Assembly: GCF_030450125.1 (NCBI RefSeq) | Contig: NZ_CP123923.1 | Location: forward strand, 7,535,001 to 7,599,000 | From: Streptomyces sp. WP-1 | GTDB taxonomy: Bacteria; Actinomycetota; Actinomycetes; Streptomycetales; Streptomycetaceae | Length of the DNA: 64,000 bases | Reading direction: 5' to 3' | Part shown: one piece after another, positions 56,691 to 64,000 of the stretch | How the letters are laid out: every line of letters begins with the position of its first letter | Position numbering within the stretch: position 1 is the stretch's first letter | The notes under the pieces: model-generated | The model's database searches: none | What the model saw: the letters and a program-made list of their open reading frames with translations, nothing else | What the model was told of the DNA's origin: nothing | Made by a program: the position numbers and the translations under genes

Positions 56691-57530
56691 CTACGGCTTC
56701 GTGGCGCGAATGCTGAAGAGGACCGGAAGGGGGTACTCCCAGAGTTGCAGCCGCCAGAGCCCGTCGGTCCCCTGGGTGAGGACGCCGTCCCGGTCGTTCC
56801 GTTCACTCGTCAGGTGTTCCTCCACGGTGTCGATCCGCAGGCCGGCGGCTGCGAATGCGGACACCAGCTCGCCGAGGGAGTGGGACCACTGGACGGTCTC
56901 CCGGTTCTCCAGCGGCCTGTCGGGGGCGGCGTAGCTCGTCGCGCTGGAATAGCGGTGCGGCCCGTCGTCGGCGTACGGGGAGTCGACCACGAGGGGATTT
57001 CGTTGCTCGATCATGCGCGCGAGCGGATGGAGATCGACAACGGCGAGTCGGCCGCCCGGCCGTAGGGCCCGTGTGGCGCTGCGTGCCCACGCCCGGAGGT
57101 CTCCGATCCAGGTGAACACTCCGTAGGAGGCCCATACGACGTCGAAGCTTCCCGCCAGGTCCGCGGGCAGGTCGAGAACGTCTGCGGTGACAAAGTCGGC
57201 AGCCAGGCCGGTGCGCCCGGCGAGTTCCCGTGCGCGCTCGATCGCCACCGGTGAGAAGTCCACTCCGGTGACGCGGGCGCCTTGCCGGGACCAGCTCAGG
57301 CTGTCGAGTCCGAAGTGGCACTGGAGATGGAGGAGATCACGTCCGTCGACGTCCCCGGCCAGTTCGACATCCAGGTCCCGGAGCGTGCTGCCGCCGGCGA
57401 GGAAGCTCTCCGTGTCGTAGTACGACGGGTCCTGCCCGTGGGCCAGTGCGCGCTCGTCCCAGCTGCGCCGGTTGAGATCTCGCGCTTCGTCCTCGGGGAT
57501 GACGTCCCTGTGTTCCGTGGCTCCCGACAT
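56691..57530 (-). CDS. Class I SAM-dependent methyltransferase
   Basis: A 279-residue methyltransferase: RDLLHLQCHFGLDSLSWSRQ (motif I variant, HLQCHFG), ARVTGVDFSPVAIERARELA, FDVVWASYGVFTWIGDLRAW and LRPGGRLAVVDLHP. The HLQCHFG group is common in actinobacteria and its substrates are mostly unknown. The gene is 42 bases after the P-loop gene in the same direction and is probably the last gene of the nucleoside operon, though it could be an independent neighbour. Confidence 0.8.
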   Translation of the reverse strand: MSGATEHRDVIPEDEARDLNRRSWDERALAHGQDPSYYDTESFLAGGSTLRDLDVELAGDVDGRDLLHLQCHFGLDSLSWSRQGARVTGVDFSPVAIERARELAGRTGLAADFVTADVLDLPADLAGSFDVVWASYGVFTWIGDLRAWARSATRALRPGGRLAVVDLHPLARMIEQRNPLVVDSPYADDGPHRYSSATSYAAPDRPLENRETVQWSHSLGELVSAFAAAGLRIDTVEEHLTSERNDRDGVLTQGTDGLWRLQLWEYPLPVLFSIRATKP

Positions 57531-57572
57531 GTCGGGAGCCTACCCCGTGGGAACCGGCATCCGGCCGCATGC

Positions 57573-58310
57573 TCATGCACCATCTCCCCATCCGGTGTGG
57601 CGCCAGCCCGGATAGAGCAGGTCCATGATCTCGCCGCAGTGTGTCTCGAACGTCGCACGCATGGCCGGCGTCCAGTCCTGTGGGCCGGTCGCCCGCCGCC
57701 TGGTGAGCACGGCGAACTTCGCCTTGCCGAACCGATCGTGGTTCTTGTGTGGCAGCGCATCGGGCAGCGGCGACAGCCCGAGCGCTTCGCACATCCGGTT
57801 CCGCTCCGGGCCGGGGGCGAGGATGTCCTCCATGCGGACGATCGGCGCATCCCAGTCCAGCAGCCTGCGGTAGGTCCACGACCAGAAGCGGCAGCACTTC
57901 TCGAAACGGTCGCCGGGGAAGGCGGGTTGCAGCCGTGACCAGTGGGCCTCGCGTGGCCGCACGGTCCAGTAGTACCACCCGTCGTTCATCCCGGAGGCCA
58001 CGGTTGTGCGGCCGTCCCGGCACAGGGCGACGAGCGGCACCTCGGGCAGCGGCCGGTTGTCGAGGAACACCAGGTACGGCGAGACCTCTATTCCGGGTCC
58101 GATGCTGTGCAACAGGGCGACGGCGCCTTCCTGGTCACCGGCGAGCAGACGGCGGACCAGCTCCCTCGCGTGTGTCTCGTGCCGTGCCCGGACGCGGGTG
58201 CCCCCGCGGGAGACGGCCGTGCGGTCGAGGGCCGCGGCGAGAGATGTCGTACCGCAGCGGCCGGAACCGGTGACGAAGCCGTGCGGCGGGAAACCCTGGT
58301 GACTGGCCAC
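57573..58310 (-). CDS. P-loop sulfotransferase-like protein
   Basis: A 245-residue protein beginning with GFVTGSGRCGTTSLAAALDR, matching the 5'-phosphosulfate loop of sulfotransferases, followed by HETHARELVRRLLAGD, LVALCRDGRTTVASG (the 3'-phosphate Arg/Ser region) and APIVRMEDIL. GTG at 58310 follows GGAGGAGAG. It could sulfonate an intermediate or be a non-sulfonating P-loop relative. Cotranscribed with the TS-like gene (25-base gap). Confidence 0.7.
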   Translation of the reverse strand: MASHQGFPPHGFVTGSGRCGTTSLAAALDRTAVSRGGTRVRARHETHARELVRRLLAGDQEGAVALLHSIGPGIEVSPYLVFLDNRPLPEVPLVALCRDGRTTVASGMNDGWYYWTVRPREAHWSRLQPAFPGDRFEKCCRFWSWTYRRLLDWDAPIVRMEDILAPGPERNRMCEALGLSPLPDALPHKNHDRFGKAKFAVLTRRRATGPQDWTPAMRATFETHCGEIMDLLYPGWRHTGWGDGA

Positions 58311-58335
58311 TGCTCTCCTCCGCTCCTTCCGCGCG

Positions 58336-59331
58336 TCAGATCGCCGCCATGAGATCGGTGACCGCAGGGGTGACGGCGGGACTTTCGACGACGGTCTCGG
58401 CGTCGCCGAGTTTGCGGTAGGCGAAGGTGGTGAGGCAGGCCCTGGCGACCTCGGTGAAGGCGAAGGACGCTTTCGTGGCGGCGAAGCGGTCCACGGCCGC
58501 GCTGTCACCCGCGTCGGCCGCCGTACGCAGTCCGCGTTCGAGGTCCACGAGTTCTCGTACGGCGGCGCGCACGTCGTCCGGGCCGCTGGGCAGGGCGGGC
58601 AGCTCCGCCGGTGCCACCGGTTGTGAGATCAGCTTGCCGACCAACTCGACCTCGTTCTCGTACACATGGAAGGTGCCGGACTGATGGATGTAGGGGCCGC
58701 AGGCGGCATCCAGCAGGGCGGCGGCGACCTGGTGCATCACCATGAACAAGAAGGCGTCGTAGGGCAGCACGGTCAGGGCCTGCTGCGCCCGCATCACGGT
58801 GATCCAGGTGAGCGCGCCATCACGCAGGAACAGCTGGACGCCGGCGGCACAGGGGTGCTCGCGGGACTGTGTGAAGTGGTCCGATGAATCGAGGACGACC
58901 GCGAATGTCCGGCGATGCGCCGGGTCCCGCCGGATCCGGTCGATGATCGCTTCCAACTGGTTCCCCGACGCCGCGGCGAGCAGCCGTCGGCCGAACGCCC
59001 CGCTCAACGTGTGCTGGTCGTCGGAGTATTCGTAGGCACCGCGGCGGTAGTAGGCGGGTGTGCCGACGTCGTCCCTGCCGTCCAGCGACCATGCCGCCAG
59101 GCCGAAGCAGTAGGGGAGGTGGACCGGTAGCAGGGGCGTGAAGGCCAGGCAGGACCGCGGTGAGCCGATGCGTAAGGTGTGTGCGAGCAGTTCACGGTAG
59201 GGCCTGTCCTGAGCGCCGAAGCCGGAAGCCTTGGACAGCGGGTCCCGCACGGACGGGACCTTGGCGCCCTGGGACAGGATGTTCTCCAGCTCTCCGGCAT
59301 AGGCCTGTGCGAACGTGTCGTAGGGGGGCAT
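58336..59331 (-). CDS. Thymidylate synthase-like (CMP/dCMP hydroxymethylase-type) enzyme
   Basis: A 331-residue thymidylate synthase homologue: RIRRDPAHRRTFAVVLDSSD (phosphate-binding Arg pair), catalytic Cys161 in SREHPCAAGVQLFLR, and GPYIHQSGTFHVYENEVE matching the nucleotide-binding H-x-x-x-x-x-H-x-Y strand. It lacks the canonical RSxD and so is not a housekeeping ThyA. Relatives in nucleoside antibiotic clusters (MilA, BcmA) make 5-hydroxymethyl-CMP. Here a MilB-like glycosidase gene is in the same operon, supporting that role. ATG with GAGGAG upstream. Codon 53 is TTA (59173-59175). Confidence 0.78.
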   Translation of the reverse strand: MPPYDTFAQAYAGELENILSQGAKVPSVRDPLSKASGFGAQDRPYRELLAHTLRIGSPRSCLAFTPLLPVHLPYCFGLAAWSLDGRDDVGTPAYYRRGAYEYSDDQHTLSGAFGRRLLAAASGNQLEAIIDRIRRDPAHRRTFAVVLDSSDHFTQSREHPCAAGVQLFLRDGALTWITVMRAQQALTVLPYDAFLFMVMHQVAAALLDAACGPYIHQSGTFHVYENEVELVGKLISQPVAPAELPALPSGPDDVRAAVRELVDLERGLRTAADAGDSAAVDRFAATKASFAFTEVARACLTTFAYRKLGDAETVVESPAVTPAVTDLMAAI

Positions 59332-59340
59332 CTGTGCTCC

Positions 59341-60588
59341 TCAGCGGTTGGAGAACTGTCGGATGGAACGGGATGTGGTGGCGAACGCCATCATCGTGAG
59401 CGCGCCCACGGCCAGTGCCGCACCTGTCGCGGGGAAGCCGCCCCAGCTCACCAGTGCCCCCACGACCGCCGGCGCCAATGGCGTGACGGCATTGCTGAGC
59501 AGGTTCACCGCCGAGTGCACGCGGCCCTGCAACTCGTCCGGTGCGTGCGCCGTCTGATAGCCGAAGATGATGCTCTGTGTCGGGGCGATGGTCGTAGCGA
59601 GCAGAAAGATCACGATCGCCACGGCCCAGGGTGCCGAGCTGACGGCGAGGACCGCGAGCATCGGGGGCCACAGCCACCCCAGGGCGATCAGCAGGGCGCC
59701 GTCACGGTACTTCGCGCGCAGCTGCGGCACGGCCAGCGCCCCGGCGGCCCCGCCGATACCGCCGCATGCAAGCAGTGTCCCGATGACCGCCGGTGCGACA
59801 CCGGCCGTACGCAGACCGACGATGACGCCCAACGGCATCGCCGCGACGATCGCGTTGATGCCGCAGAGATAGACCAGGCTCGCCCGGCCCGGCCGGTCGT
59901 GCCAGACCCAGCGCATGCCCTGGAACAGTTCCGACGTGGCCAGCGGCACCTTGTGCTCCGTGCCGGAGAGGCGGGTGGTGATGCCCAGCACGGCGGCGAG
60001 CGACACGAGGTAGGACCCGGTGTCGGCGAGGAACGGCACCGGCGCTCCCAGTGAGAACAGAAACCCGCCGACGGGCGCTCCGGCGATGGTCGCGGCCTGG
60101 AGGTAGATCTGGTTGTGCGCGATGGCCTCGCTCAGCCGCGTGCGTGGGACGAGGTACGGGAGCACCGCGCGTTCAGCCGAGAAGAAGAACACCGAGAACG
60201 CACCTTCGAGGAAGGCCGCCCCCAGGATGAGGGGATAGCCGGCCGTTCCGGTCAGAACCGCCGCGGCAAGGCCACCGGCCGTGGCGGCCCGGCCGACGTC
60301 GCACCAGATCAGAACACGCTTCCTGGAGCAGACGTCGACCACCAGGCCTGCCACCAGGCGCAGCAGCAGTCGCGAACCCGTGCTCACCAGCCCGACGAGG
60401 CCGGCCTTGAACGGGGTGCCGCCAAGGTGCAGTACGAGCAGGGGGTAGGCCAGATCGCTGGCCGCCGAGCCCACGCTGGAGACTCCCTGCCCGAACCACA
60501 GCAGCCAGAAGTCGCGGCCGAACCGGGGCCGGCCCGGGCGGGTACCTGCCTGGGCCGGGCCGGACACCGGCGCCGGGTTCTCACTCAT
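59341..60588 (-). CDS. MFS exporter
   Basis: A 415-residue transporter with about 12 membrane helices, of the MFS_3/DHA-like type: RDFWLLWFGQGVSSVGSAAS, then DVCSRKRVLIWCDVGRAATA, FLEGAFSVFFFSAERAVLPY and HAPDELQGRVHSAVNLLSNA. It likely exports the nucleoside product and gives self-resistance. ATG at 60588, eight bases after the GNAT stop; the upstream extension of the frame lies inside that gene. Confidence 0.85.
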   Translation of the reverse strand: MSENPAPVSGPAQAGTRPGRPRFGRDFWLLWFGQGVSSVGSAASDLAYPLLVLHLGGTPFKAGLVGLVSTGSRLLLRLVAGLVVDVCSRKRVLIWCDVGRAATAGGLAAAVLTGTAGYPLILGAAFLEGAFSVFFFSAERAVLPYLVPRTRLSEAIAHNQIYLQAATIAGAPVGGFLFSLGAPVPFLADTGSYLVSLAAVLGITTRLSGTEHKVPLATSELFQGMRWVWHDRPGRASLVYLCGINAIVAAMPLGVIVGLRTAGVAPAVIGTLLACGGIGGAAGALAVPQLRAKYRDGALLIALGWLWPPMLAVLAVSSAPWAVAIVIFLLATTIAPTQSIIFGYQTAHAPDELQGRVHSAVNLLSNAVTPLAPAVVGALVSWGGFPATGAALAVGALTMMAFATTSRSIRQFSNR

Positions 60589-60596
60589 CGCGACGG

Positions 60597-61169
60597 TCAG
60601 ACCTGAGAGGTGTCCGACTGCCGGTGGAGCACCCTCATCCGCTCGGCGAACTCCTCGGCGAGGACGCCGTAGAGCACTGCGTCGACCGGGGTGCCATTGA
60701 CCAGCCGGGCTTTGCGCGCGATCCCTTCCTGGACGGCGCCGGCCGCCTGACACGCGGCGGCCGCGGGCAGGTTCTGTGCGAGGACCCAGGCGTAGATGCG
60801 GCGCAGTCCCATGACGTGGAAGCCGAATTCGGCCATCAGCAGCGCGGCTTCGCGGCCGAGGCCAAGCCCTCGGTTGCTGATGTCCCCCAGTGCCAGCGAG
60901 ACCTCGGCCGACCTGTCCTCGGAGCCGGGGTTACGCAGCGCACCGAGCCCGAGGGCGGCGCCGTCCTCGGTCGAGTACAGCATGAAGGTCGCGTCGTGGT
61001 ACGAGGGTTTGCCGTGCCTGTCGATCCAGTCCCGCCAGCCGCCGCGGCCCACCGGGTAGCGGTAGCCGAACATGTCGCGGAAGTAATCCTCCTGGAACCA
61101 TGCAAAGACCACGTCGGCGTCCTCGGGTTCCAGGGCGCGTAGGGCAACCCGCTTTCCTGGTGTCACCAC
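60597..61169 (-). CDS. GNAT acetyltransferase
   Basis: A 190-residue RimJ/RimL-type N-acetyltransferase: VALRALEPEDADVVFAWFQE, SLALGDISNRGLGLGREAAL (acetyl-CoA loop with GLGLGREA) and GLRRIYAWVLAQNLPAAAAC. GTG at 61169 with GAGGAGAGG upstream. In nucleoside antibiotic clusters such enzymes either decorate the product or inactivate it for self-protection, as blasticidin S acetyltransferase does. Confidence 0.85.
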   Translation of the reverse strand: MVTPGKRVALRALEPEDADVVFAWFQEDYFRDMFGYRYPVGRGGWRDWIDRHGKPSYHDATFMLYSTEDGAALGLGALRNPGSEDRSAEVSLALGDISNRGLGLGREAALLMAEFGFHVMGLRRIYAWVLAQNLPAAAACQAAGAVQEGIARKARLVNGTPVDAVLYGVLAEEFAERMRVLHRQSDTSQV

Positions 61170-61201
61170 GAACCGTCCTCTCCTCGAGCCGGGCAGGGCC
61201 G

Positions 61202-61927
61202 CTACTTCCGTTCCAGCAACTGAGCGAAGCGCCGCTCCCAGGCGTCCTGATTTCCCTTGGCCTCCTGGACGAACCGGCTCCGGGCGATCCCTCGGATCAC
61301 CATGTTGTTGACCAGGGAGTATGGAAATGCCATCGGCCGTACGACATCCATGAACAGCACGGCACGGTCCTCGTCGGTCCCGTTCCAGGCTTCATGCACG
61401 TAGGTGTCGTCGAAGAACATCCCGGTCCCCTCAGTCCAGTGCGCCTCTTGTCCGCCGACGCGAATACCGCAGGCGTTCTCGGGCGACGGGATCTTCAGCG
61501 CGAGGTGATAGCGGACCACGCCCTTGTAGGGGCCGCGGTGCGGTGGCACGTGTTTGTGCGGGCCGAGGATCGAGAAGAAGGCCGTTTTCAGACCGGGTAC
61601 CCGGGCCAGCAGTTCAGCTGTCCGCGGGCACCGTGCGCAGTTGGCGTCGAATCGGAACCCGTAACCGTAGAAGAAATAGGTCTTCCACTGGTCGTCGTTG
61701 GTGATGCGGCGTTGGTCGGTGGAGATGTCCTGGAAGTTGGGCAGCGCTTCGCGGTGCTCCAGCAGGGCGTCGAGTTCGGCTCTGACGTCACGCCAGTTGC
61801 CTTCGAGTCCACGGCTCCACGGGAACGCCGATTCCGGGATGAACGGGCTGTCATCGAAGCGGGAGTGGTGGACCATCTGCTTTTCGATCCACTTCACCAG
61901 CATGGGAAGAACTCTCGGCACAACCAC
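61202..61927 (-). CDS. Aspartyl/asparaginyl beta-hydroxylase-like oxygenase
   Basis: A 241-residue Fe(II)/2-oxoglutarate oxygenase of the AspH/LpxO family: FFSILGPHKHVPPHRGPYKG (metal His), VVRYHLALKIP, WTEGTGMFFDDTYVHEAWNG (second metal His) and EDRAVLFMDVVRP (2-oxoglutarate Arg). Family members use a His-only or His-x-Asp facial site. GTG at 61927 is the longest start; ATG at 61903 is equally plausible. In this operon it may hydroxylate an amino-acid or nucleoside moiety. Confidence 0.82.
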   Translation of the reverse strand: MVVPRVLPMLVKWIEKQMVHHSRFDDSPFIPESAFPWSRGLEGNWRDVRAELDALLEHREALPNFQDISTDQRRITNDDQWKTYFFYGYGFRFDANCARCPRTAELLARVPGLKTAFFSILGPHKHVPPHRGPYKGVVRYHLALKIPSPENACGIRVGGQEAHWTEGTGMFFDDTYVHEAWNGTDEDRAVLFMDVVRPMAFPYSLVNNMVIRGIARSRFVQEAKGNQDAWERRFAQLLERK

Positions 61928-61958
61928 ACCCCCGCGTACGTCAGTTCGTCTACCGGTC

Positions 61959-62516
61959 TCAGGTGCGTGGCATCACGAGCTCGGCTCGGCCGCCGGCCGG
62001 AATGACCGGACCGAGCAACTCGGTGGTGCACCGGTCGAGTTCGTCGGGATCGAATCTCCCGTCCTCGACACCGACGTATCGCACCGGAGCGATGGTGTGC
62101 ACCCCCGCGACGAGCGGCGGCACTTCCTGACCTCGCTCGATGAGGAGGATCATGGGCTTGGCCATGGCCGACATCCAGCCGAGCTCCACCATCGTGCCCG
62201 GGGAGGGCGGGTCTCCGGGATACGCTACGAAGAGTACGGCCTTGCGCAGTGCGAGATAGTCGAGCCGGGTGCACACGTCCGGGGCCATGACCTCGGCCCC
62301 CCAGGCTTCCCGGCGATGGGCGTTGTCCACCTCGAACCCCAGCGCGGTGAAGTGGTCGATGAGAGCCCGGTAGTTGCTGCGGTGCCGGTCCGGAAGAAGC
62401 CCCGTCTCCGGGTCGAGCAGCCCTTTGAAGGGGCCACCGACGAAGACCAGCGGCTTGCTCCCGTCAGGGTGCAGTGGCTCGTCGGCGGACAGGGGAAGCG
62501 ATTCGGGGTGGCTCAC
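61959..62516 (-). CDS. MilB/BlsM-type CMP N-glycosidase (nucleoside 2-deoxyribosyltransferase fold)
   Basis: A 185-residue nucleoside deoxyribosyltransferase-fold protein: LVFVGGPFKGLLDPETGLL, VDNAHRREAWGAEVMAPD, TRLDYLALRKAVLFVAYPGD and SPGTMVELGWMSAMAKPMIL. The catalytic Glu is Glu111 (VELGW). As I recall MilB and BlsM, they share GGPF, NAHRREAWGAE, TRLD, SPGT and VEIGW. Those enzymes hydrolyse (hydroxymethyl)CMP to the free base and ribose phosphate. GTG at 62516 is set by GGAGGG. First gene of the leftward operon. Confidence 0.88.
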   Translation of the reverse strand: MSHPESLPLSADEPLHPDGSKPLVFVGGPFKGLLDPETGLLPDRHRSNYRALIDHFTALGFEVDNAHRREAWGAEVMAPDVCTRLDYLALRKAVLFVAYPGDPPSPGTMVELGWMSAMAKPMILLIERGQEVPPLVAGVHTIAPVRYVGVEDGRFDPDELDRCTTELLGPVIPAGGRAELVMPRT

Positions 62517-63054
62517 CGAGAGGTTCCCTCCGTTGTAGGAGTTTTGGTGTGGGACAGGTGCGGATTCTCCGGTGACACGGGCGTTGATGACCCCGTGCGG
62601 TACACCTGATGTCAGTTCGCCGACGATCCGGCGCCCGCGGATTCCGACACCCGCGACAGGAGATTTTCTCCTATGGCTGAAACTTGACACTCCCATGTGC
62701 TGCAACGTCACGGCGTCTGAGTGGCGAGCGCCATGGTCCCTTCCGGGGCAGTGAGCCGCCTCGGGGTACCCGGCGTCCTGCTCGGCACGGAAGAGTGAGT
62801 GATGGATTTCGCACGTGCGTTCCCCCGAGTTTTACTCGTCATTGCAGCAAATGACGGGTCGACTGCAAGCTTCGAGTGAAGCGAAGTCCGTGTCAAGGCC
62901 ACGACTCGAATGATGTTGGCCAGTAAGAGAGGTTGCGGGTTCTTGGAATTCGATGTTACGGTCGGCCCGGTGTCTATTCAGCAGCGGCGACCGATGAGTT
63001 CGGCAACGAATTCTTCCCGCTGTTGAGAGGATCTTCGCGCCAGGGGGCCGAGAC
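62517..63054. promoter_or_regulatory. Divergent promoter region of the nucleoside cluster
   Basis: 538 bases, more AT-rich than the surroundings, between the leftward MilB-like operon and the rightward radical SAM gene. TTGACA occurs at 62684-62689 on the + strand, but no matching -10 follows at 16-18 bases. No intact gene is seen. Confidence 0.45.
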
Positions 63055-64000
63055 GTGGACGCACAAATTCCGTTAGGCGCACCACCCTCCATGGAACTGG
63101 TCTACTTCGGCCTGTTCGACAACTGCAATGCCCGGTGCAATATGTGTGAGTGCTGGCTGGCCCCGAGAGCCGATCTGCCGCTCGCTCATTACCGGAATGT
63201 ACTGTCGGCGGTGCTGTCTCTCCGGCCACGCGCCGTTCGCTTCACCGGCGGTGAACCACTGATCTTCGCCGAGCTGCCGGAACTCGTAGGTCAGGCGGCC
63301 GCGGAAGGCGTTCGGGTATCCGTCATCTCCAACGGGCGTATTCTCGGCCCCGGTAAAATCCGTGCCTTGATCGACAGCGGATGCAGGGAGATGGTGCTGA
63401 GCATCGACGCGCTGCGAGAGAATCACGACCGGATACGCGGCACCCCAGGTCTCTTCGACCGCTGTACGGAGGCCATCGGGGACCTCCACGAAGCGAAGAT
63501 GGACTACGGCGTCAACACGGTGCTGCAGGCGCTGGGGGCGGACGACCTCGCATCGCTGGGCGAAACGCTCCGGACACAGCCCAACCCGCCGTCGTGGTGG
63601 CACCTCATCCCCGTCCGGGGCGACGACGCACTCCGGCCCAGCGCGGCTCAGCGGGCGCGCATGCAGGAACTCATACCGAGACTGAGGGAACGGATGTCCC
63701 AGGCGGGGACCCGGATGGTCGCGGCCGACGACCCCTTCCTGGATGCCGGCCCCGAGCCCTGCACGGTGCCGACCTTCACCGCGTACGTGCGCGCTGACAC
63801 CGGCGACATCTTCGGGTGCAACATGCTCGTCTACGCCGATCCGCCGCTCGGAAACGTCCTGCGGTGGCGCGCGCAGGACGCCTGGAACAGCCTGGACGCC
63901 CACAGTCTGCGGGACCGCTGCGCCACCGGCACGAACAGGTCATGCTCCCGGTGCGACCCGAGTTCCAAAGCGATGAACCACGTCCTGAGGGAATTGGCCG
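63055..64000 (+). CDS. Radical SAM enzyme with SPASM-like C-terminus (runs off the window)
   Basis: Partial at the 3' end; 315 codons are visible. LFDNCNARCNMCECW gives the radical SAM Cys-x3-Cys-x2-Cys cluster, VRFTGGEPLIF the GGEP motif, and VSVISNGRIL the SAM region. The C-terminal part has CTVPTFTAYVRADTGDIFGC and CATGTNRSCSRCD, a SPASM/twitch-like set of cysteines. GTG 63055 with a weak ribosome site or ATG 63091 may be the start; with the former, codon 7 is TTA. Radical SAM decarboxylases or dehydratases act on the sugar in blasticidin and mildiomycin pathways; this may be the counterpart. Confidence 0.8.
   Translation, partial: MDAQIPLGAPPSMELVYFGLFDNCNARCNMCECWLAPRADLPLAHYRNVLSAVLSLRPRAVRFTGGEPLIFAELPELVGQAAAEGVRVSVISNGRILGPGKIRALIDSGCREMVLSIDALRENHDRIRGTPGLFDRCTEAIGDLHEAKMDYGVNTVLQALGADDLASLGETLRTQPNPPSWWHLIPVRGDDALRPSAAQRARMQELIPRLRERMSQAGTRMVAADDPFLDAGPEPCTVPTFTAYVRADTGDIFGCNMLVYADPPLGNVLRWRAQDAWNSLDAHSLRDRCATGTNRSCSRCDPSSKAMNHVLRELA

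Follow-up and report, generated by a model that had tools for sequence, protein, structure and literature searches.

A compact row of about 18 genes, which begins in the analysed window (64,000 nucleotides of Streptomyces sp. WP-1) and continues past its right edge, is likely to direct the formation of a peptidyl nucleoside of the cytosylglucuronate (CGA) kind in which, judging from sequence, a hydroxymethylcytosine-glucuronate would be acylated with an aspartate-derived β-amino acid, either β-alanine or isoserine. The product would combine cytosine with a sugar and would probably be an antibiotic akin to blasticidin and mildiomycin, with another type of amino acid; the cluster itself is distinct from those of both compounds. 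CGA-type peptidyl nucleosides such as blasticidin S and mildiomycin serve as crop fungicides, and blasticidin S is also a laboratory selection agent. A search of the open-access literature, with most subscription papers outside its range, found no paper on this cluster. Eight of the genes discussed lie wholly or partly in the window:

56691..57530, minus strand: class I methyltransferase (HLQCHFG), possible edge gene; PF08241, 4.3e-16
57573..58310, minus strand: sulfotransferase-like ORF (weak), possible edge gene; P-loop-like GSGRCGTTSL by eye
58336..59331, minus strand: thymidylate synthase (TS)-fold enzyme, proposed CMP 5-hydroxymethylase; Pfam TS, 4.1e-13; PDB MilA, 3e-20
59341..60588, minus strand: predicted MFS exporter; PF07690, 6.8e-25
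60597..61169, minus strand: putative GNAT acetyltransferase for self-protection or tailoring; PF13302, 3.9e-15
61202..61927, minus strand: Asp/Asn-hydroxylase-family protein, presumed Fe(II)/2-oxoglutarate hydroxylase, nearest model OlsC; PF05118, 3e-53
61959..62516, minus strand: predicted MilB/BlsM-type (hydroxymethyl)CMP N-glycosidase with a Lys gate; PDB BlsM, 3.4e-41, and MilB, 5e-37
63055..64000, plus strand, gene end at 64029 past the window: radical SAM/SPASM protein; PF04055, 1.9e-15, and PF13186

All eight are located where a sequence-only reading of the window had put them, and seven gave strong matches (six to Pfam models, the N-glycosidase to BlsM in the PDB), the sulfotransferase-like ORF being the exception. 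Some gene starts in the cluster were picked by the annotator, and that of the MFS gene was set by eye. The expected continuation to the right was found: the radical SAM gene and ten others reach past the window, namely genes for a DegT aminotransferase, a methyltransferase, CGA synthase, a phosphatase, a kinase, a Fem-type protein, an unnamed protein, a PLP decarboxylase, a carrier protein and a VinN-type adenylation enzyme, the last of which ends the cluster at 73768 (coordinates extended past the window). The unit spans about 58.2–73.8 kb in these coordinates, in which the gene of the unnamed protein occupies 69823–70746. Its genes are closely packed, some overlapping, and its GC content is 0.688, as compared to 0.72–0.73 in the surroundings. 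A scan of the gap between the divergent genes returned no promoters or terminators, and no tRNA genes were found at locus L003.

The sequence-only reading had proposed a pyrimidine nucleoside cluster, although CGA synthase was not visible to it. Extension to the right revealed further nucleoside genes, among them one for CGA synthase 2.3 kb beyond the window edge, whose product scored 393.7 bits with TIGR04467 (E 8.9e-118; curated cut-off 300). Together with the BlsM/MilB type of the N-glycosidase, this supports the proposal.

The N-glycosidase gene starts with GTG, preceded by GGAGG. Its product contains the motifs GGPF, NAHRREAWGAE and VELGW recognized before, and in rows aligned to PDB sequences GGPF and VELGW fit (G/A)-(G/A)-P-F and the Glu of VE(I/L)GW, respectively. 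The protein is 51% identical to BlsM over 140 amino acids; all six sequences found in the PDB search at E ≤1 are named Blasticidin M, CMP/hydroxymethyl-CMP hydrolase or CMP N-glycosidase, and the generic NDT Pfam model gave 23.2 bits, below its cut-off of 28.8, so that the protein is BlsM/MilB-like rather than a generic NDT enzyme. The gate residue is Lys here and in the relatives L005 and L006. When gates were scored across loci, leaving out L015, L020 and L040 with their very short MilB/BlsM matches, Lys occurred in the two loci with a TS gene and Ile, Leu, Thr, Val or Met in the other 12. According to excerpts of PMC4081090, MilB homologues that are associated with a homologue of the ThyA/CH/MilA type have an Arg/Lys gate state, which was tied to 5-hydroxymethyl-CMP, and the gate residue of BlsM is Met. 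The Lys gate fits the hydroxymethyl-CMP that the TS-like enzyme is predicted to form.

In the PDB search with the TS-like protein, MilA ranked first (3e-20) and thymidylate synthase second (2.5e-10). The Cys161 in HPCAAGVQ pointed out by the sequence-only reading is present. The protein has Ala at the position of MilA Ala176, for which a role at the ribose site is described in PMC5175136, and Asp at the ThyA Asn site; the dUMP-site Ser and Asn of ThyA are absent. Among seven comparison proteins only MilA also carries both Ala and Asp, and 78 of 80 database relatives retain the pair. In these two residues the protein resembles MilA and not ThyA, but it does not belong to the close family of MilA: it is 28% identical to MilA and falls into its own clade (100/98) without MilA, in a tree where the MilA row is a fragment on a long branch and of uncertain placing. 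The cluster points to a second TS family, distant from MilA, whose substrate-site residues predict the use of ribo-cytidylate; the choice of CMP rather than dCMP is less than certain because of the tree position and of an Arg where MilA has Lys133. Two other Streptomyces genomes (L055, L056) contain the same TS family in a different neighbourhood, with no match to the MilB-type protein among the ORFs selected, so the family is not confined to CGA pathways.

A thymidylate synthase of housekeeping or phage origin, placed in the cluster by chance, is a very improbable explanation for this protein. No other PF00303 match occurs in the genome, and distant relatives are present in 1148 phage records (22–28% identity among the 20 matches listed). 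However, thymidylate is covered by a ThyX encoded elsewhere in the genome, Asp and Ala replace the dUMP-type Asn and Ser as in MilA, and the gene is grouped with an N-glycosidase whose gate suits the proposed product. The presence of ThyX and the missing dUMP residues led us to reject the housekeeping role.

The radical SAM gene diverges from the N-glycosidase operon, as recognized earlier, and its product contains CNARCNMC (CxxxCxxC) and GGEP. It scored 76.8 bits with the BlsE model TIGR04466 (cut-off 400), whereas four of five sampled rows of the other radical SAM clade pass at 466–674 bits and the fifth, L047, reached 386. In trees in which L007 is represented by an incomplete radical SAM sequence (253 aa) and L008 by a DegT sequence taken from one of two frames, the radical SAM and DegT proteins each belong to a separate five-row clade (supports 100/100 and 97/99), whose other members among the compared loci are only those of S. 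griseofuscus, S. natalensis, Nocardiopsis CNR-923 and Thermogemmatispora. Assignment as BlsE was rejected on the basis of the model score. The sequence-only reading took the TS-like, N-glycosidase and radical SAM genes as a start common to mildiomycin, bacimethrin and blasticidin pathways; to our knowledge, the bacimethrin pathway lacks a CGA or radical SAM branch and the blasticidin pathway lacks a hydroxymethylase, which contradicts the claim.

The mildiomycin cluster (mil, Streptoverticillium rimofaciens; gene roles from excerpts of PMC11784345) resembles the present one in a TS-fold enzyme, an N-glycosidase, CGA synthase, DegT and radical SAM proteins, a carrier protein and a proposed aminoacyl transferase, and the blasticidin S cluster (bls) shares the CGA synthase family, radical SAM and DegT proteins and the BlsM-like N-glycosidase. 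The CGA synthase, DegT, radical SAM and MilB-type genes, common in kind to these systems, would suit an ordinary mildiomycin or blasticidin relative with the same product logic, i. e., BlsE-type decarboxylation and an arginine side chain. We regard this as unlikely, since the radical SAM and DegT proteins stand apart, and in place of the MilN-like dihydrodipicolinate synthase family, which had no Pfam match among the 18 cluster proteins scanned, the cluster carries a VinN/BtrK-type β-amino-acid module. It differs further from mil in the low identity of its TS-like protein to MilA, and from bls in having a hydroxymethylase-like gene and the Lys gate.

In this module, the genes of the stand-alone VinN-type adenylation enzyme, the carrier protein and the PLP decarboxylase adjoin in a row, in line with the carrier-protein logic of vicenistatin VinN and butirosin BtrK. 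Decarboxylase and carrier protein were matched in two of 44 CGA loci, each viewed up to 10 kb from the synthase. The VinN pocket residues D230, F231, S299, K330 and R331, whose roles are described in PMC11253843, correspond to D, Y, T, K and R (three identical, two conservative), with no gap at the short loop of VinN. Among solved structures the decarboxylase is closest to BtrK, with 200 bits as compared to 160 for the next non-BtrK entry. In contrast to the VinN/BtrK systems, the module is joined to a nucleoside pathway and glutamate mutase is absent from the 18 cluster proteins; two PF06368 homologues elsewhere in the genome keep 3-methylaspartate among the possible substrates. The Asp/Asn-hydroxylase-family protein gave 257.2 bits with the OlsC ornithine-lipid hydroxylase model NF052565, below the cut-off of 450, and might act on the nucleoside instead of the amino acid.

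VinN/VinL/VinO sets occur in macrolactam clusters (PMC10662134, in part), as would be expected if a nucleoside cluster reaching to about 68.7 kb merely touched an unrelated β-amino-acid cluster at 68.7–73.8 kb. This is very unlikely: within the compared range of 54.0–83.8 kb, S. natalensis shares a single block, 58189–73757, with 92% DNA identity, the right edge of which coincides with the end of the VinN-type gene, and the GC3-filtered ORF list of the same range contains no PKS or multidomain NRPS by eye. Moreover, the conserved unnamed protein and the Fem-type protein are also encoded near CGA synthase in the uncharacterised loci of Nocardiopsis CNR-923 (L008) and Thermogemmatispora aurantia (L007), together with the phosphatase and the radical SAM/DegT clade. 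There, unlike here, a carrier-like domain is fused to a SerRS-like amino acid-[carrier] ligase; the 19–21 kb compared contain no BtrK-type or TS-like match, and a MilB-type match in L008 only. We tentatively suggest, with rather less than even confidence, a branch of CGA nucleosides spanning Actinomycetota and Chloroflexota, in which a new radical SAM subfamily performs a non-BlsE reaction on (hydroxymethyl-)CGA and a protein family without known relative transfers a carrier-held amino acid (β-alanyl or isoseryl here, one loaded by a SerRS-like ligase elsewhere) to the sugar amine.

For the peptidyl nucleoside favoured here, a pathway may be drawn up from gene content, homologies, active-site residues and conservation of the unit. 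The TS-like enzyme would hydroxymethylate CMP at C5, the MilB-like enzyme would then free 5-hydroxymethylcytosine, and CGA synthase would couple this base to glucuronic acid. The sugar would next be reshaped and aminated by the radical SAM enzyme and the DegT aminotransferase specific to this clade, and a methyltransferase may add a methyl group. In parallel, the VinN-type ligase would load aspartate, or 3-methyl- or 3-hydroxyaspartate, via the β-carboxyl group onto the carrier protein, and the BtrK/VinO-type decarboxylase would yield a β-aminoacyl group, β-alanyl or, if the OlsC-like dioxygenase hydroxylates, isoseryl. Transfer to the sugar amine is assigned by elimination to the Fem-type and/or the unnamed protein. 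The PDB search with the Fem-type protein gave three matches, each with E of at least 1; the unnamed protein was also considered as a tRNA-dependent cyclodipeptide synthase, which was rejected (hhalign probability 0.3% when its shallow profile of eight rows was compared with 15 CDPS rows). Kinase, phosphatase, GNAT and MFS proteins are the likely set for self-protection and export. Through its distinct radical SAM enzyme, its β-amino-acid module and a carrier-protein amide route, such a branch would broaden both chemistry and enzyme set, and it raises the testable questions of how the radical SAM enzyme acts on CGA and by what route amino acids pass from the carrier to a nucleoside amine.

At the left edge, two members of the earlier gene set need correction: the DNA in common with S. 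natalensis leaves out the methyltransferase gene and covers just a part of the sulfotransferase-like ORF. The latter ORF is present (uncertain start, GTG at 58310 or 58508), but its label is weak, the best Pfam match having 12.4 bits (E 0.19; cut-off 27), and in the genus a relative was found in its own genome alone (1 of 295). In S. natalensis, 51 amino acids of it are matched, and the common DNA stops inside the ORF at 58189. The methyltransferase gene is unmatched in the S. natalensis locus and is matched at 97% in S. griseofuscus.

The cluster is a new variant within the nucleoside clusters of the cytosylglucuronate (CGA) type; the open-access literature searched yielded no description of it, although this does not prove that none has been published. 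Its contig is single (7,618,767 bases); the window covers bases 7,535,001–7,599,000 of it, which places the right edge of the window 19.8 kb from the contig end, and the right part was read from the same contig in extended coordinates that count on past 64000. All genes named in the sequence-only reading were found where it had placed them. Seven genes, from the N-glycosidase to a methyltransferase, form a leftward row with gaps of 8–42 bases between neighbors, and a GGAGG lies upstream of the N-glycosidase start at 62516. After a gap of 538 bases follows a rightward row of 11 genes, in which five of the ten joints overlap by 4–14 bases with the starts as chosen; the frame of the unnamed protein, which runs to 70746, also overlaps that of the decarboxylase, for which 70733 and 70739 are candidate starts.

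Genes of the cluster (ext., extended coordinates)
56691–57530, leftward row, methyltransferase
61959–62516, leftward row (its start), N-glycosidase
63055–64029 ext., +, radical SAM protein
64026–65258 ext., +, DegT aminotransferase (PF01041, 6.6e-84)
65255–66289 ext., +, methyltransferase with N-terminal Cys pairs (PF13489, 1.8e-25)
66292–67527 ext., +, CGA synthase (TIGR04467)
67524–68195 ext., +, histidine phosphatase (PF00300, 3.8e-30)
68215–68736 ext., +, small P-loop kinase-like protein (AAA_18, 9.4e-9)
68757–69803 ext., +, Fem-type transferase (PF13480, 3.6e-14)
69823–70746 ext., +, unnamed protein (start uncertain, 69778–69838)
about 70739–72037 ext., +, PLP decarboxylase (PF02784, 1.3e-33)
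72024–72281 ext., +, carrier protein (PF00550, 2.8e-11)
72278–73768 ext., +, adenylation enzyme (PF00501, 3e-78)

In a collection in which each bacterial or archaeal species is represented by a single genome, 44 CGA synthase loci were found. All 17 genes tested are present in Streptomyces griseofuscus (93–99%; kinase, 98%), where the likeness extends on the right, apart from a short unmatched stretch, to the locus end (window 76036), and on the left for about 0.3 kb. The S. natalensis locus, compared with 54.0–83.8 kb, has one common block (window 58189–73757, 92%), and because it ends there, the right edge of the cluster was set at the end of the adenylation gene. The sulfotransferase-like ORF was matched partly in the S. 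natalensis locus and the methyltransferase 56691–57530 not at all; both are therefore regarded as edge genes. Within 56691–73768 the GC content is 0.688; the left flank has 0.730, the right flank 0.720, and window 1–54000 has 0.719. Fructose-operon-like genes, judged by eye, are next on the right.

The cluster kind proposed from the sequence alone, a pyrimidine nucleoside natural-product cluster, is supported. The protein encoded by 66292–67527 scored 393.7 bits against TIGR04467 (cut-off 300). Among 120 relatives listed, five Streptomyces proteins, including those of S. griseofuscus and S. natalensis, are 75–96% identical to the CGA synthase, followed by a metagenome protein (56%) and one of Frankia sp. 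B2 (54%); the others share 38–51%, one fragment (P0047) excepted. Outside the Actinomycetota, a Lysobacterales metagenome genome (L047:7676–11020) carries, side by side, the genes for a CGA synthase (34%), a near-BlsE radical SAM protein and a DegT protein.

The radical SAM protein, which together with the DegT protein would act on the sugar, contains the motifs CNARCNMC and GGEP, but reached only 76.8 bits against the model of the decarboxylase BlsE (cut-off 400). In a tree of 35 rows, including a partial Thermogemmatispora aurantia row without the Cys motif, it groups with the proteins of S. griseofuscus, S. natalensis, T. aurantia and Nocardiopsis CNR-923 (100/100); the Nocardiopsis protein scored 118.8 bits. 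The other 30 rows all have CNADCFMC, and four of five scanned pass the BlsE model (466–674 bits; L047, 386). The DegT tree (34 rows, that of Nocardiopsis read in one of two frames) recovers the same five-row group (97/99), which L047 adjoins. These results set the radical SAM/DegT part apart as a separate branch, and the radical SAM reaction is not deducible from BlsE. The Thermogemmatispora radical SAM frame (L007:4715–5473) lacks the N-terminal part including the Cys motif, which is present in the window and the other three loci. The Thermogemmatispora DegT protein is 71% identical to that of the window, and the occurrence of such a locus in a Chloroflexota genome may reflect transfer between phyla.

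The TS-like protein and the N-glycosidase would supply hydroxymethylcytosine. The best PDB match of the TS-like protein is the CMP 5-hydroxymethylase MilA (3e-20, 28% identity). Both carry Ala at the substrate site and, in place of the Asn of the two ThyA rows, an Asp, a mark of cytosine nucleotides; at the same pair of sites, Ser/Asp is seen in T4 hydroxymethylase and phage G, and Ser/Asn in phages Candle and ctfPj964. The Ala/Asp pair is kept in 78 of 80 database relatives (exceptions P0160 and P0200). PMC5175136 ties this Ala to acceptance of ribose. Two points count against a MilA-like role: Arg replaces MilA Lys133 in the TS-like protein and 79/80 relatives, and the tree, in which the family is its own clade (100/98), leaves the position of MilA open. 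The TS-like gene (window 58336–59331) is the one PF00303 match in the whole genome. Since a ThyX-family gene, to which thymidylate supply presumably falls, is located at contig 2384812–2385447, a housekeeping role is unlikely. Two other Streptomyces genomes encode the same TS family (65–67%; L055, 9953–10993; L056, 8992–9984) adjoining, with gene kinds judged by eye, ECF-transporter-like genes and a common row of long protein, HAD-like, FemAB-like and MFS genes. The MilB-type protein of the window had no match among the ORFs selected there, and the family may be used by a second, different pathway.

All six PDB sequences matched by the N-glycosidase (E up to 1) are BlsM or CMP/hydroxymethyl-CMP N-glycosidase chains. 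According to PMC4081090, an Arg/Lys gate occurs in MilB homologues linked to ThyA/CH/MilA homologues and is absent from unlinked ones. Lys occupies the gate in the S. griseofuscus and S. natalensis loci, the two with a TS match, whereas the 12 other loci scored have I, L, T, V or M there. For these 12 the view spans only ~10 kb around the synthase, with a distant TS gene possible and several matches cut by the locus end; L015, L020 and L040, with very short matches, were left out.

The genes that the sequence-only reading listed beside the TS-like, N-glycosidase and radical SAM genes are, as it had noted, not a set known from the mildiomycin, bacimethrin and blasticidin-type pathways. The adenylation enzyme is nearest to 3wvn (1.3e-145), listed as VinN in PMC11253843; at the five pocket positions it has D, Y, T, K, R, versus D, F, S, K, R in VinN. 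The decarboxylase is nearest to BtrK (6.4e-58); VinO/FlvO-type decarboxylases are paired with 3-amino-2-methylpropionate and beta-alanine starters in PMC10662134. Because none of the 18 cluster proteins is a glutamate mutase, a route from aspartate to a beta-alanyl group is favored, with 3-methylaspartate as a possible alternative substrate; two PF06368 homologues are encoded elsewhere in the genome, far from the cluster. OlsC hydroxylates next to the carbonyl. The OlsC-like protein, which scored 257 bits against the OlsC model (cut-off 450), would, if it did likewise, convert the aspartate-derived beta-alanyl group to an isoseryl group.

The unnamed protein matched neither Pfam nor NCBIfam and has four database homologues (8000 candidates scored). 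Its gene lies in 4 of the 44 CGA loci, and it is these four that also have the Fem-type gene and a radical SAM protein of the window's clade. Frankia sp. B2 encodes a homologue and also a CGA synthase, each reported on a contig of 111,174 bases, co-location being deduced from the equal sizes. In Nocardiopsis and Thermogemmatispora, the preceding gene codes for a carrier-like domain (by eye) fused to a region that is similar to amino acid-[acyl-carrier] ligases, with E-values of 6e-9 and 3.5e-10 and bits far below cut-off. The unnamed protein may thus transfer a carrier-bound amino acid, although other functions would fit too. A cyclodipeptide synthase was also considered; no likeness was detectable.

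The cluster encodes a kinase and a phosphatase, and the Thermogemmatispora and Nocardiopsis loci an APH-type kinase and a phosphatase, suggesting from gene content that phosphorylation may provide protection during synthesis. In Nocardiopsis, a double ATP-binding-cassette protein, by eye of the ABC-F type, adjoins the CGA synthase.
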